Positions 4,303 to 9,525 of a DNA stretch of 24,546 bases are shown here, piece after piece; position 1 is the first letter of the stretch; the number at the start of each line of letters is the position of its first letter. A program made the position numbers and the translations under genes. The stretch covers positions 1-24,546 of the forward strand of contig CALEDJ010000060.1 in assembly GCA_937951485.1 (NCBI GenBank). The letters run 5' to 3'. This DNA is from an uncultured bacterium (GTDB lineage: Bacteria > Hydrogenedentota > Hydrogenedentia > Hydrogenedentales > CAILVY01). The notes beneath the pieces were generated by a model. That model ran no database searches and was not told where the DNA came from. It worked only from the letters and a program-made list of their open reading frames with translations.

Positions 4303-4512
4303 CTATCGGCGGCTGAAGATATTCCATATCCGGATAGGCAAGGTCGGGCTGTATTCGGGGCAATTGTTGTCGGCGTTGATCAGGCGGCAATAGGCCGGCT
4401 CCTGGCTCAGGGTCTGCATAGCGCCGTCGCAACGGCAGAATTGCACCTTCCGCTTCACGCAGCGGAGTTCCTTATTGTCATCAATGGCGTGTCGGCAGAC
4501 TTCACACTGCAT
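4303..4512 (-). CDS. Small cysteine-rich protein, unknown function
   Basis: A 69-residue protein with seven cysteines: CEVC at residues 3-6, C18, CRC at 26-28, C42 and C51. The YCRLINADNNCPEY pattern, including NADNNC, resembles small zinc-ribbon-like or metal-binding proteins, but I do not recognise a named family. The start is ATG 4512: GGAGA lies 7-8 nt upstream, and this start removes overlap with the cytochrome gene, whereas the frame itself stays open to 4551. It begins 13 nt after the stop of the CydA-like gene and is probably the last member of that operon. It has no signal peptide or membrane segment. A role in metal or heme handling for the operon is speculation. Confidence 0.72.
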   Translation of the reverse strand: MQCEVCRHAIDDNKELRCVKRKVQFCRCDGAMQTLSQEPAYCRLINADNNCPEYSPTLPIRIWNIFSRR

Positions 4513-4525
4513 CACGAGGTCTCCT

Positions 4526-5959
4526 TCATGGGATGCTCTGTGCAACGGCATGCGCCGCCGTGTCCCTGTTGAGCATAACGTCCAGGTAATCCTGCAATGC
4601 TCCGATTTCTTCCGGGCGTCCGACGAGCGGAGGCATGTAGGCGCGGTATATCAGGTCTTCGGGATAGTCGCGCAGCGATTTCAGGAAGCCGCCGATGCTC
4701 TCGTGGTCGCGCCCTTTCATGAGTGTACGCATGGCGCGATAGCCGTCCACCGTATGGCAGGACATGCACTGTCCGCGAAACATCAGTTCCCCCCTGGCGA
4801 GATGTGCGGCGCCTGCCGCCTCTCCGCTGCGAGCCGGATTGGCGGCATCCCAGAGACGGCGCTCTTCCGGGCGCGCCCAGATTGTCTTTACAAGATAACC
4901 CTCACGGTTTATCCGGTCCACTTCAAGCGTGCGCACGCCGCTCGAATACATGTGGTGCCCGATGACATAGGGTTTGCGGAGCATCTCGCGTGAGTATTCG
5001 GTGGAGGCGGTGGCCGCCAACGCCAGCAGCAGCAGCGCGACGGCATGGCCGAAACCGAAATCCCCGGGATTCCGCCACGCCAGAAGATACACAATGACCG
5101 CAATGGTGGCCGAGGTCATAATCGTCACCAGCGCCATGCGCGTGACCTGGGTAAAGGTGCCTTGGCCGATGGTGCTGATGCCCAGGCGCAACAGGTCCAA
5201 TTGGGATGCAGGCACATTCCACAGGTACCAAAGGAATCCGACCGGCAGCAGAACAAAGGACGGAATAAGCCACAAAGCGGACCAGCGCATGACTTCCGTC
5301 TTCAGTTCCGGCCGGGCGTAACTGTCAATGCGGCTGGCTGTCACAAACGCCCACAAGCCCGCCAGGGAGAAGCATATCAGCGTGCGCAGCAAGAGGCTCG
5401 GCCACATGGTGGGATTGAAGAAGGCCTGCCAGAACATGGACGCCTCGTTGCCGCTGCCGGCGACGCCCAACCACGACGGCCCCGGCGTCAGCATGAAAGT
5501 CAAAATGCCATTGATGACGAACAGGCTCATCCACGCGGTGGCGGCATAGACCCACCCGATGGCCAGATGCAGGCGGTTGGAGACGCGACCCCATGTGTAG
5601 TAGTACACCGCGGCAGCGGTGATTTCCATGATGAAGAAGGTCCACTCGATGGCCCACGCGAAGACGAAGTTGCGGATCAACGTGCTGGTGGCTTCGGGAT
5701 GCGCCAGACCAATGGCGAACCAGATGCCGACACCCGTCATCGCCCCGAACACGGCAGTGAGAATCAGGAAGAATTTGGAATGCCCTCGGAGCACTTCCAG
5801 CCAGTCTTCGCGACCTTCGCGCAGCGCTTTGCGCTCGGCCAGCGGCAGATAGAAACCCCCGCCGATGGCGAAATGCGAGATGAGCACGTGAATGATCGCG
5901 ATGATGCCGATTACCCATCCCCCGCCGATGATGGGAACCTCCCATGCCGGATAATTCAT
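4526..5959 (-). CDS. CydA-like (bd-superfamily) oxidase subunit fused to cytochrome c
   Basis: A 477-residue protein. About eight transmembrane helices (residues 10-325) are followed by a periplasmic class I cytochrome c domain with CMSCH (398-402) and a likely Met ligand in YMPPLVG (about 442). The membrane part aligns with CydA: IIHVLISHFAIGGG (His24, equivalent to the heme-ligand His19 of E. coli) and AIEW...IME (Glu105, Glu112, like Glu99/Glu107). The stretch where E. coli has His186 reads SLLLRTL, so the b558 ligand seems missing. There is no GRQPW motif and no long quinol loop. The start is ATG 5959, with GGGAGA 7 nt upstream; TTG 5974 is less likely. It lies 27 nt after the cytochrome b gene. 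Cytochrome c-fused bd-family groups are known; I infer electron entry from the Rieske/cytochrome b partner rather than directly from quinol. Confidence 0.87.
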   Translation of the reverse strand: MNYPAWEVPIIGGGWVIGIIAIIHVLISHFAIGGGFYLPLAERKALREGREDWLEVLRGHSKFFLILTAVFGAMTGVGIWFAIGLAHPEATSTLIRNFVFAWAIEWTFFIMEITAAAVYYYTWGRVSNRLHLAIGWVYAATAWMSLFVINGILTFMLTPGPSWLGVAGSGNEASMFWQAFFNPTMWPSLLLRTLICFSLAGLWAFVTASRIDSYARPELKTEVMRWSALWLIPSFVLLPVGFLWYLWNVPASQLDLLRLGISTIGQGTFTQVTRMALVTIMTSATIAVIVYLLAWRNPGDFGFGHAVALLLLALAATASTEYSREMLRKPYVIGHHMYSSGVRTLEVDRINREGYLVKTIWARPEERRLWDAANPARSGEAAGAAHLARGELMFRGQCMSCHTVDGYRAMRTLMKGRDHESIGGFLKSLRDYPEDLIYRAYMPPLVGRPEEIGALQDYLDVMLNRDTAAHAVAQSIP

Positions 5960-5986
5960 GCCATATTCTCCCAAAAGCGCCGGGGC

Positions 5987-7123
5987 TTAATGTCCCGCCG
6001 CGCCGTAAACTTCCCAATAACCCATCACGGTCAGACCGATAAGACCAATCACCGCCAGCAGTCCAAACCACGTGGCGATCCGCGCCCGCCTGGCCAGTTT
6101 GCTGTCGCGGTCATAAAGCGGTATCAGTGCCCAGAGCAGGCCGCCGATGCTGAACATGCCGATGCCCGCAAATTCTCCCGCGGCGCCCGGTAATATTCGC
6201 CCGAAAACCTTGAGCGCCTGGAACTGGCTCATGAAATACCATTCCGGATGAATGCCCACCGGGGCCGCCGCAAGCGGATCCGCCGGCGGCCCCAACTGCC
6301 ACGGATAGACCGATGCCAGCAGCGCCAGCACGTTCAGCGCGATCAGCCACATCGCCAAATCCTTCATGAAGAAATTCGGGAAGAAAGGAATGGTATGCCG
6401 TTCCGATGCCGGCTTCTCCGCTTCGCTCGGCGGCACCGCATTGCCATGAAAGACAACCAGCGCCAGATGCACCGTCAGCACACCGATGAAAACCAGCGGC
6501 AACACCACCACGTGCAGGGCGAAAAAACGCGCAATGGTGATCCCCGTGACTTCCGGACCGCCTTGCACGAGGTTCTCGATAATCGGCGCCATCCCAGGCA
6601 TGGTCTTGGGGATTTCCAAGCCGATCTTCGTGGCGAAATAGGCCAATTCATCCATCGGCAGGAGATAACCGCTGAAGCCGAATACCATGGTCATGCCCAG
6701 CAACGCCAGCCCGGTCCACCAGCCGAACTCGCGGGGGGGGCGGTAGGCTTTCATAAAAAACACTGAAAACATATGAACAAAGACACAAAACACCATAAGG
6801 TTGGCCGACCAAGAATGGGCGGATCGGATGAGCCAGCCAAATTCAATTTCATAGGTGATGATCCGGACGGAATCATAGGCTTCCGGCCCCGGGCGGTAGT
6901 ACAGCAGCAGCAGAATTCCCGAGACCACCTGCACCACGAAGAAAAACAGCGACAGACCGCCCCAGTAGTACCAGAAGGAATAGCGATGTTCCGGGACCAC
7001 CTTTTCCCGGGCCAGCGCGAGGATGGCGTCCAGGCCGATGCGATCGTCCAGCCATGCGTAGAGGTAATCCTTGGGGCGCGTAGATGCCATGTTGTCATGC
7101 GCGGGTAATGATGATGTGCTCAT
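5987..7123 (-). CDS. Cytochrome b (b6-type N-terminal half plus PEWY-containing subunit IV-like half)
   Basis: A 378-residue integral membrane cytochrome b of a bc1/b6f-type complex, which oxidises quinol with the Rieske protein. Heme-ligand pairs are His103/His117 (13 residues between) and His204/His219 (14 between, the spacing typical of cytochrome b6 rather than mitochondrial-type b). The Qo motif PEWY is at 293-296 and SGYLLPMDE at 151-159. Both halves are in one chain. The start chosen is ATG 7123, which has GGAGG 6 nt upstream and overlaps the Rieske gene by 29 nt. The frame extends to 7297, but that would lie wholly inside the Rieske gene, and ATG 7090 has no ribosome binding site. The tight overlap implies translational coupling with the Rieske subunit. 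Confidence 0.92.
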   Translation of the reverse strand: MSTSSLPAHDNMASTRPKDYLYAWLDDRIGLDAILALAREKVVPEHRYSFWYYWGGLSLFFFVVQVVSGILLLLYYRPGPEAYDSVRIITYEIEFGWLIRSAHSWSANLMVFCVFVHMFSVFFMKAYRPPREFGWWTGLALLGMTMVFGFSGYLLPMDELAYFATKIGLEIPKTMPGMAPIIENLVQGGPEVTGITIARFFALHVVVLPLVFIGVLTVHLALVVFHGNAVPPSEAEKPASERHTIPFFPNFFMKDLAMWLIALNVLALLASVYPWQLGPPADPLAAAPVGIHPEWYFMSQFQALKVFGRILPGAAGEFAGIGMFSIGGLLWALIPLYDRDSKLARRARIATWFGLLAVIGLIGLTVMGYWEVYGAAGH

Positions 7124-7583
7124 CGCTGACCTCCACTTGAAATACGGACAGGGGCTTGGGCGGCGGCCCGGCGATATTTTTTCCGCTCTGCGGGTCATAA
7201 ACGCCGCTATGACATGCGCAAAAGATGCGACCTTCCTCCGGTTGATACTGCACCGTGCAGCCCAAGTGGGTGCAGACCGCGCTGTAGCAAGCCACATGGC
7301 CGTCCGGCAGGTGAATCAGCATCGCCGGGGTGACCCCGAATCGGAACATCATCGCCGTGCCGGGTTTCGGCAGGTCCGCTTTGGGCAGGGTGACTTGTGT
7401 TACGGCGGCCAGTTCCCGCGCCTGTTCTGCAGGCGATACGAGGTACCTGTATACAGGATAGGCGATGGCTGCGGCGTAGCATACACCCATCGCGCCCAGA
7501 CCGGCGGCCGCAACAAATTGCCTTCGCCCCATTTCGTCGGCAGGGTTGTTCAGGGTCCCAACATCCTCAGGCATATTGCTCAT
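7095..7583 (-). CDS. Rieske iron-sulfur protein of a bc-type complex
   Basis: A 162-residue protein with a twin-arginine-like N-terminus (MGRRQFVAAAG, residues 18-28), one membrane anchor (about 23-48) and a C-terminal Rieske fold. Box I is CTHLGC (104-109) and box II is CACHSG (122-127). By family knowledge Cys104, His106, Cys122 and His125 bind the 2Fe-2S cluster, and Cys109-Cys124 form the disulfide. Box II reads CACHSG instead of the commoner CPCHGS. The start is ATG 7583, with AAAGGAG 4-5 nt upstream. It overlaps the upstream membrane-subunit gene by 17 nt and cytochrome b by 29 nt. It should pass electrons from quinol to the heme c domain encoded two genes downstream. Confidence 0.95.
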   Translation of the reverse strand: MSNMPEDVGTLNNPADEMGRRQFVAAAGLGAMGVCYAAAIAYPVYRYLVSPAEQARELAAVTQVTLPKADLPKPGTAMMFRFGVTPAMLIHLPDGHVACYSAVCTHLGCTVQYQPEEGRIFCACHSGVYDPQSGKNIAGPPPKPLSVFQVEVSDEHIIITRA

Positions 7584-8682
7584 CCACTCCTTTCGCGCGC
7601 GCCGCCACGGAAATCATCCACCCCATGACGGCGACCATGACCACAAAGAGCAGCAGGAATACCGCCACCACGCCCCAGTTTGTATTGACCGGACTTTGCC
7701 ACACATCAAATCCGTTCAATTTCAGTGTGAGATCGCGAATGCCGTCGCGATATACCGTCATCAACAGCAGATTGACGAGCACCGCACCGGCGCAAAGGCC
7801 GCACCAACCCCATGATCGCCGGTGTTCCTGCTGCGCCGCCTGGAATCCCAGCGCCGCCACGGCCAGCGCACTCAGGATGAGCAGCCCGCCGCAGAACAGG
7901 TAGAAGGTGTTGCCGCGCAGCGCCGTCCGCACCGCTTCCGGTTGTGACGAATACACGCGCCACGCCAGAGGAATCTGCACCAGGGCGAAAATGCCCAAAA
8001 GGCGTCCGCCGCGCCGCCGCATGAACGAGGCCGCGTCCGCCGGAATGCGCCGCTTCATACCCAGCAGCATCACCATCGCCCCGCTGACTCCCAACGACCC
8101 GATCATCATATAGAGCCATCTCGGCATGACGGTGGGATCGCCTTTTGGCAATTGGAAACCCAGGGGGTTCTGCCGGTACATCTCCGGCCAGACCTCCGGC
8201 CGCAACATCAGCGTCATGTTGGCGGAATAGAGATAGCCGACCTTGAGCAGCAGCACAATCGCGATCATGCTGAGCCAGTGATAGGCGCGCCCCATGTCGG
8301 CCCGCTTCGCCATCTGATAGAGGATGAAATACGCCGCCATGACCAGAAACACCACCGACACCCACCACACACCCATCAGGATGCTGGAGGTATAAAGCGC
8401 GCGGCCGTAGAGCACTTGCGCGAAAAGCAGCGGCGGCACCCCCAGGTTGATGACATAGGCCATGAGGATGGGCAAGCGGTGGACAATCACGCCGCTCGCA
8501 TTCATCCGATCCGGCGCGTATCCCGGACGACCCCGCAGATACCACCACGTCGCCAGAATCAGCCCGCCAACCATGCATTGCACCGCCGCGAAATGCAGCG
8601 CCAGCGTTACCGCGTGCAGCGCCTTGAACACCCAGACCGGCGCGGGCAATGGGATGGGATCAATGGCAGGGAATACTTCCAT
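7567..8682 (-). CDS. bd-like oxidase second membrane subunit (CydA'-like)
   Basis: A 371-residue hydrophobic protein with about eight or nine membrane helices and no soluble domain. Its first helix, KALHAVTLALHFAAVQCMVG, carries two histidines (23 and 30) in the position where CydA-type proteins have their first heme ligand. The following INLGVPPLLFAQVLYG resembles bd-superfamily membrane subunits. I see no Glu pair like that of the downstream CydA-like protein, so this may be the structural partner, analogous to CydB or CydA' in two-CydA-type complexes. The start is ATG 8682 with GAGGAAG 6 nt upstream. It is the first gene of the operon and overlaps the Rieske gene by 17 nt. The function is inferred from context more than from conserved residues. 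Confidence 0.72.
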   Translation of the reverse strand: MEVFPAIDPIPLPAPVWVFKALHAVTLALHFAAVQCMVGGLILATWWYLRGRPGYAPDRMNASGVIVHRLPILMAYVINLGVPPLLFAQVLYGRALYTSSILMGVWWVSVVFLVMAAYFILYQMAKRADMGRAYHWLSMIAIVLLLKVGYLYSANMTLMLRPEVWPEMYRQNPLGFQLPKGDPTVMPRWLYMMIGSLGVSGAMVMLLGMKRRIPADAASFMRRRGGRLLGIFALVQIPLAWRVYSSQPEAVRTALRGNTFYLFCGGLLILSALAVAALGFQAAQQEHRRSWGWCGLCAGAVLVNLLLMTVYRDGIRDLTLKLNGFDVWQSPVNTNWGVVAVFLLLFVVMVAVMGWMISVAARAKGVDEQYA

Positions 8683-8880: not shown

Positions 8881-9358
8881 CAGTGTTGTCCAAAACAGAT
8901 TATTGAGAAGATGGAAGACCTCGCCCAAAGCCCCTGGAAAATCCTGTTGAATTAATGTGGCGGGCTTATCCTGTACGTAAACCGCTGCGTGGGACTCCTG
9001 AGGCATCATTGACTCGTGTACCAGGGTGTTCTGTTTTGTTCCCCCTCACCCCACCCCTCTCCCAAAGGGAGAGGGCGTTTATCGCGCCACCTGCGGCTGC
9101 TCTTGCTCCCTCTCCCAAAGGGAGAGGGCGTCTACCGCGCCACCTGCGGCATGCTGTTGCACCATCTCCCAAAGGGAGAGGGCGTCTATTGCGCCACCTG
9201 CGGCTGCTCTTGCTCCCTCTCCCTCCGGGAGAGGGCGTCTACCGCGCCACCTGCGGCTCCTGTTGCTCCCTCTCCCTCCGGGAGAGGGGTGGGGTGAGGG
9301 GGAAGGCCAATATGATCGAAGGCTATTCTCAACGCCAAGAATATTTTGGACAGCACTG
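8881..9358. mobile_element. Complete 478-bp MITE-like element with terminal inverted repeats and internal array
   Basis: The left terminus reads CAGTGTTGTCCAAAACA and the right terminus, reverse-complemented, reads CAGTGCTGTCCAAAATA, so 15 of 17 positions match. The order is end A (8881-9045, inverted relative to 137-323), a five-palindrome array (9055-9288) bounded by inverted CCCCTCACCCCACCCC blocks, then end B (9289-9358). End A has a second copy at 137-323. End B has copies at 2359-2429 and about 24256-24330. No transposase is encoded, so movement would need a trans-acting enzyme. The 9 bp on either side (TTGTGCGCT and TTTTGCGCT) look like a target duplication. However, TTCTGCGCT also follows the B end at 2430, so these bases may belong to the element. 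Confidence 0.7.
9055..9288. repeat. Palindromic array, 5 units, period 53-54 bp
   Basis: The palindromes CCCTCTCCC-N3-GGGAGAGGG begin at 9055, 9108, 9162, 9215 and 9268. The third left arm reads CCATCTCCC. The loop is AAA in the first three units and TCC in the last two. The 32-33-nt spacers are near identical, with core GCGCCACCTGCGGC, and vary mainly in CTGCTCTTG versus ATGCTGTTG. The loop change within one array suggests exchange between arrays of two subtypes. Confidence 0.92.
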
Positions 9359-9384: not shown

Positions 9385-9525
9385 CTGTTCTCGTTGTCCC
9401 TGCTGCCCCTTTAATCCTTATCTGTCCCTGCTGTCGTTGTTGTACTTTCTCTCCTTTCTGTCCCTTTAATCCTTATCTGTCCCTTCTGTTCCCGCTGTCC
9501 TTGCTGTTCTTTCTGTTCTTGCCGG
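9385..9525 (+). repeat. Pyrimidine-rich tract with a 23-bp direct repeat
   Basis: About 140 nt are dominated by C and T, built from TGTCCCT, TGCTGTCC and TTTCTGT variants. The 23-bp stretch 9407-9429 (starting CCCTTTAATCCTTATCTG) recurs at 9462-9484, 55 bp later. The tract mirrors the purine-rich stretch at 8825-8870. There is no gene between 8683 and 9636; the remainder (9526-9636) is the leader of the next gene. Confidence 0.8.

Follow-up and report, generated by a model that had tools for sequence, protein, structure and literature searches.

A Rieske/cytochrome b pair encoded between the two subunits of a cytochrome c-fused bd-type oxidase: a probable bc-bd quinol oxidase in Hydrogenedentota and other phyla

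The window analyzed here, a stretch of 24,546 nucleotides, is contig C60 of a 4.55-Mb MAG whose nearest named relatives belong to Candidatus Hydrogenedentota. Gene calls and inspection of the sequence revealed a four-gene set on the minus strand (8682-4526), in which neighboring genes overlap or abut. In reading order, the genes encode a bd-fold subunit II of 371 residues (7567..8682, start read from the sequence), a Rieske [2Fe-2S] protein of 162 residues (7095..7583, Pfam match and start read from the sequence), a one-chain cytochrome b of 378 residues (5987..7123, Pfam match and ATG at 7123 read from the sequence), and a CydA-like subunit I with a C-terminal heme c domain, designated CydA-c, of 477 residues (4526..5959, ATG at 5959; identified by Pfam, fold, and heme ligands). 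All four genes thus lie where an earlier sequence-only reading had placed a group of overlapping or tightly spaced genes. The longest open reading frame (ORF) for cytochrome b begins at 7297; this start was set aside, the ATG at 7123 being preferred from the sequence. The subunit II and Rieske genes overlap by 17 nt, the Rieske and cytochrome b genes overlap by 29 nt, and the inner starts are preceded by purine-rich, Shine-Dalgarno-like sequence. These overlaps of the first three genes, together with the Shine-Dalgarno-like sequence, indicate that the four genes are likely to be co-transcribed as a single unit. The downstream flank is a gene resembling aminodeoxychorismate synthase, as judged by eye, and the upstream flank is an unrelated gene on the opposite strand; neither was common to the relatives compared (those of the same order and the 80 loci described below). 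Two tandem arrays are located upstream of the operon, one consisting of 4.4 copies of a 53-bp unit (9055-9288) and the other being C/T-rich with units of 18-55 bp (9395-9516). A Cys-rich small ORF of 69 residues (MQCEVCRHAI..., 4303-4512, minus strand) begins approximately 14 nt past the CydA-c gene, ahead of the next gene.

The Rieske protein matched Pfam family PF00355 (1e-11) and contains one transmembrane (TM) anchor and has an RR-x-F start. Both cluster motifs, CTHLGC (7274-7257, minus strand) and CACHSG (7220-7203, minus strand), were complete in 77/77 relatives. The cytochrome b matched the Pfam Cytochrome_B and B_N_2 families at about 1e-39 to 1e-40 (PF13631, 4e-40) and PF00032 at 2e-7, the b6 and subunit IV regions being present in a single chain. 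The Qo motif PEWY (6247-6236, minus strand) was found in all 80 cytochrome b relatives, and the His pairs of the b hemes are conserved in the alignment (simple patterns matched 70/80 and 78/80 sequences). These matches and motifs bear out the Rieske protein and the one-chain, PEWY-containing cytochrome b of the earlier reading. The position that we take to correspond to the b6 cysteine holding heme c_n appears to be aromatic in the module cytochrome b. Cytochrome bc complexes have a dedicated c-type subunit (c1, f, or diheme c); none is encoded in the operon, and an ORF with any CxxCH motif was present within 5 kb in only 9/80 loci. Since no gene for cytochrome c1 or f lies nearby, the heme c fused to CydA-c is the likely acceptor of the Rieske electrons.

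CydA-c matched Pfam family Cyt_bd_oxida_I (PF01654, 4e-20). Over residues 1-338, its model (pTM 0.69) matched E. coli bd-II residues 2 to about 460, corresponding to helices 1-8, with a VIA Z of 25.6. Neither the ninth helix nor the long Q-loop is present, and the cytochrome c domain starts just past the region equivalent to GRQPW. Heme c attachment is expected at CMSCH (4768-4754, minus strand) and the distal Met in YMPPL, in which MPP is conserved; CxxCH was present in 80/80 relatives and CxxCH-x30-60-MPP in 73/80. Residues were compared in an alignment of 38 module CydA-c sequences, nine canonical CydA sequences (E. coli included), and twenty two-gene c-fused relatives. The active-site heme ligands H19 and E445 (E. 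coli numbering), the proton-path glutamates E99 and E107, and the equivalents of R448 and P450 were kept in all 38 module sequences. The b558 ligands H186 and M393 were kept in none of the 38, nor were the Q-loop residues K252 and E257 that characterize qOR enzymes. W441 was replaced by Glu in all c-fused forms aligned. This pattern indicates that the oxygen site is intact and that the canonical quinol entry has been lost. The conserved active-site and proton-path residues favor O2 rather than NO as the substrate. The description of this protein as CydA-like, with a C-terminal heme c and without the quinol loop motif, is therefore confirmed by the PF01654 match, the CMSCH motif, and the absence of K252 and E257, and the fold comparison places the 477-residue protein inside the bd superfamily. 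That superfamily was split into the qOR, OR-C, and OR-N groups by Murali, Gennis and Hemp (2021), as cited in PMC10839748 and PMC13189123. Judged by its residues, CydA-c fits the OR-C definition, namely, a fused heme c and no quinol site, as that definition is given in secondary citations.

Three of the four proteins could be assigned by Pfam. For the 371-residue protein, the Pfam search gave no real family match, either for the protein itself or for its family alignment, and profile comparison revealed no sequence similarity to its partner CydA. Its assignment to the bd family thus relies on the fold and on its homology with other OR-C second subunits. The AlphaFold model (pTM 0.83) matched E. 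coli bd-II subunit 1 (CydA) with a VIA Z of 27.8 across 353 residues. Full-length matches to bd oxidase subunits had Z values of 25-28, versus 15-18 for alternative complex III and polysulfide reductase membrane subunits and <9 for unrelated chains; Foldseek scored CydA-like and CydB-like chains alike. Comparison by hhalign related the 371-residue family to subunit II of Thermus, Methylosinus, and Agrobacterium (E = 8.5e-29); in Thermus thermophilus, Methylosinus, and Agrobacterium, this subunit is encoded on plasmids, immediately following the gene for c-fused CydA. On these comparisons, the 371-residue protein is homologous to subunit II of the two-gene OR-C oxidases and is no additional part. 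The "bd-like membrane subunit" of the sequence-only reading has therefore kept its place in the superfamily, with a more precise identity as an OR-C second subunit. His30, invariant in 72/72 and 19/19 relatives, is located in TM1 in the same H-x8-G register as the active-site ligand and may be a ligand of a further, putative heme. Asp313 was considered as an E445-like ligand and dropped because it is not conserved in two-gene relatives. A single-sequence search of the genome contigs with the 371-residue protein returned no match, whereas the alignment-based CydA search succeeded.

All four genes were found in identical order in 15 relatives of the same order. A CydA-alignment search was then performed over 84,980 named species genomes, and the best 80 of at least 576 relatives were retained; because the search used CydA alone, synteny was not selected for. 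These best 80 belong to about eight phyla (Hydrogenedentota, Acidobacteriota, Verrucomicrobiota, Lentisphaerota, Planctomycetota, Armatimonadota, Sumerlaeota, and Chlorobiota). The order subunit II-Rieske-cytochrome b-CydA-c was intact in 71/80 loci, the other nine ending at a contig edge or having a split ORF. Cytochrome b was encoded upstream of CydA-c in 80/80 loci, with the Rieske and subunit II genes ahead wherever the contig sufficed, and the same overlap length between module genes recurred across phyla. The gene set is thus not due to chance, and the synteny check proposed in the sequence-only reading bears out the four-gene order. The 80 loci were also examined for a further conserved gene within or next to the operon, and none was found. 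Pairwise distances of the four proteins correlated with r values of 0.73-0.84, which shared ancestry inflates; such a correlation is as expected for co-inheritance, though shared ancestry alone also produces one.

Genes inserted in or located near the operon were observed in some loci (designated by L numbers). A gene for a 23S_rRNA_IVP four-helix bundle (PF05635, 2e-35 in L087) was present inside the operon, between the cytochrome b and CydA-c genes or between the Rieske and cytochrome b genes, in several Acidobacteriaceae loci and one Verrucomicrobiota locus (L087, L093, L107, L117, L125, and L080), the gene set being unbroken. A short-chain dehydrogenase (SDR) gene was located between the Rieske and cytochrome b genes in three Acidobacteriaceae loci (L090, 7896-8660; L113, 7624-8388; L123, 7581-8345). 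Both kinds of insertion, SDR and IVP, were confined to Acidobacteriaceae and the one Verrucomicrobiota locus. Upstream of five Acidobacteriaceae operons (L092, 133-705; L087; L089; L115; L120), a divergent gene encodes an Rrf2-family regulator that has a three-Cys motif, a hint that the operon may respond to Fe-S or NO/redox signals.

Two-gene OR-C pairs were found in Acidobacteriota, Thermus, Methylosinus, and Agrobacterium. At some level, 74/247 sampled Acidobacteriota genomes matched the CydA profile. Eight high-scoring genomes encode cytochrome b directly upstream, the Rieske gene being visible in seven of these short loci. The sampled middle-scoring genomes contain two-gene sets, in which a CydA-c with one to three CxxCH motifs is followed by subunit II; Rieske and cytochrome b genes were absent within up to about 8 kb, as far as the contigs reach. 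In quick trees with SH-aLRT support, the module CydA-c sequences formed one clade (SH-aLRT 100) beside the two-gene c-fused sets, and a deep member of this clade (genome G313) has all four genes. The module cytochromes b likewise formed one group (SH-aLRT 94). The phylogeny suggested in the earlier reading accordingly groups the CydA part with c-fused bd relatives, apart from qOR and from bd-like proteins of 620-770 residues, in a tree built without reference-labelled OR-C sequences. The simplest history would be a single insertion of the bc pair between the two OR-C genes, with reversal of their order. The proteins of 620-770 residues have weak CydA similarity (L193, L194, L195, and L020) and occur in Acidobacteriota and in one genome of the Hydrogenedentota order; they are probably OR-N-like, the OR-N label being our own.

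The distribution of oxidases was examined in 60 genomes of the order, mostly incomplete MAGs and including that of the window. The module and canonical CydA were each detected in 19/60 genomes, and both were detected in 1 versus 6 expected (p = 0.002 by genome and 0.03 by genus), the single genome with both being 7% contaminated. Near exclusion is the pattern expected if one quinol oxidase replaces the other, and in these bacteria the module seems to take the place of canonical cytochrome bd. It is seldom the sole oxidase, since 15/19 module hosts of the order also have a heme-copper oxidase. Neither a heme-copper oxidase nor canonical CydA was detected in three module hosts, G003 (97% complete), G047, and G049. 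The genome of the window encodes a single heme-copper oxidase, which is of the caa3 kind, and canonical CydA was not found in that genome. The caa3-kind oxidase adjoins an apparent alternative complex III cluster, as judged by gene sizes, order, and sequence. Other Rieske/cytochrome b loci were observed in the order. Hydrogenedentota encode a protein of about 440-460 residues in which a Rieske domain is fused to the C terminus of the nitrate reductase gamma subunit (L216-L220, L210; G033:C149, G006:C8, G010:C464, and others). Its gene adjoins that of a cytochrome b that groups nearest to the module cytochrome b; this locus would be another bc unit built into a reductase. In the genome of the window, L197 (5252-13620 of G000:C25) comprises Rieske and cytochrome b genes followed by those of a CxxCH protein and of proteins of 1157 and 375 residues. 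The latter pair resembles a molybdoenzyme and its Fe-S subunit, making a bc-linked nitrate reductase-like set possible.

We consider it probable that the four genes encode one obligate bc-bd quinol:O2 oxidoreductase. Quinol would be oxidized at the Qo (PEWY) site of cytochrome b. One electron would pass through the Rieske cluster straight to the fused heme c, and the second would be recycled via cytochrome b in a Q cycle. The fused heme c would replace both cytochrome c1 and heme b558 and would deliver electrons to the di-heme bd site (oxygen-binding heme d or b), at which O2 would be reduced to water with protons taken from the cytoplasm. Based on established bc and bd mechanisms, the yield would be about 2 charges per electron, one from the bc unit and one from the bd unit, versus 1 for canonical bd. 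Economy is the main argument for this scheme: cytochrome c1/f and b558 are both missing, and a single fused heme c could serve in place of both. The route from quinol through Rieske/cytochrome b and heme c to a bd-like site, already put forward in the sequence-only reading, is supported by synteny, by the absence of c1/f, by the loss of b558 and the Q-loop, and by the near exclusion of canonical CydA. Against a single route, the parts could still be connected or circumvented by a soluble cytochrome c whose gene lies elsewhere.

Alternatively, the genes could encode co-transcribed but separate enzymes without a supercomplex, Rieske/cytochrome b reducing a pool of diffusible cytochrome c that the OR-C bd core would oxidize. 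In keeping with this, there are two-gene OR-C sets devoid of bc genes, which presumably use soluble cytochrome c, and a single-domain cytochrome c gene does follow one such set (Methylosinus). We regard this arrangement as unlikely, because there is no c1/f subunit and almost no CxxCH gene beside the 80 loci, and because the bc genes are fixed between the two bd subunits and retained clade-wide. Reduction of NO at the bd site, or of O2 for scavenging only, would turn the module into a quinol-linked NO reductase or a protective oxidase. The divergent Rrf2-family regulator of five Acidobacteriaceae loci is in keeping with such a role, as are bd-like proteins of uncertain function that adjoin nitrite oxidoreductase, according to PMC3578206. 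This role is nevertheless improbable, since every residue linked in E. coli CydA to the reduction of O2 and the uptake of protons is invariant, canonical CydA is nearly excluded, and three genomes have no other detectable oxidase. Reverse use, by which a high-potential donor would reduce quinone via heme c and Rieske/cytochrome b with a structural or regulatory bd part, is very doubtful, because the catalytic residues are kept in all sequences and most of the host groups are known or presumed heterotrophs. Such use was proposed, in PMC3578206, for bd-like proteins of nitrite oxidizers that lack quinol sites.

Beyond the quinol:O2 oxidoreductase favored here for the locus, we propose with middling confidence a widespread, previously uncharacterized class of obligate bc-bd supercomplexes. 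Its members would combine a Q cycle with a copper-free bd site, use one heme c in place of c1, soluble c, and b558, conserve per electron about twice as much charge as canonical bd, and contain a subunit II whose TM1 His perhaps binds a further heme. No description of the four-gene bc-bd set was found in the literature searched, which is weak evidence of novelty, since Murali 2021 itself lies outside that search and might mention Rieske/cytochrome b neighbors.

The module is best called a real, widespread variant of bd oxidase of the OR-C type, equipped with a bc unit of its own. It shares with the two-gene OR-C sets a CydA core with active-site ligands and no quinol site, a C-terminal heme c, and a homologous bd-fold second subunit. 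It differs from them by the Rieske protein and one-chain cytochrome b encoded between subunit II and subunit I, by the reversed order of the bd subunits, and by a single heme c, versus two or three in many of the Acidobacteriota two-gene relatives. The fold and the active-site and proton-path residues are those of canonical qOR CydAB, but the Q-loop, the b558 ligands, and a CydB of the usual family are absent, a heme c replaces the ninth helix, and quinol oxidation is expected at the bc unit. Textbook bd oxidases bypass complex III, trading energy yield for affinity. As in the obligate bcc-aa3 III2IV2 supercomplex of Actinobacteria, described in PMC8361435 and PMC4505504, a bc unit would be wired to an oxidase by a bound heme c without free cytochrome c. 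The terminal enzyme of the module belongs to the bd superfamily and bears one mono-heme c domain; in bcc-aa3, the terminal enzyme is a heme-copper oxidase, and a diheme c subunit forms part of the bc unit. A quinol oxidizer is also encoded next to a non-quinol bd-like oxidase in Nitrospirales, in which alternative complex III lies beside OR-N5 CydAA' (as presented in PMC12342949); there, the combination is alternative complex III with OR-N rather than Rieske/cytochrome b with OR-C.

The set provides annotation with a simple marker, where family models at present yield a weak CydA match, a cytochrome b resembling b6, a Rieske protein, and an unknown membrane protein. If the proposed bc-bd enzyme is real, it would explain the electron supply to one group of c-fused, quinol-blind bd relatives. 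It would also represent a further way to respire O2, copper-free yet coupled to a Q cycle, in some eight phyla commonly found in soil, sediment, and water and rarely cultured.
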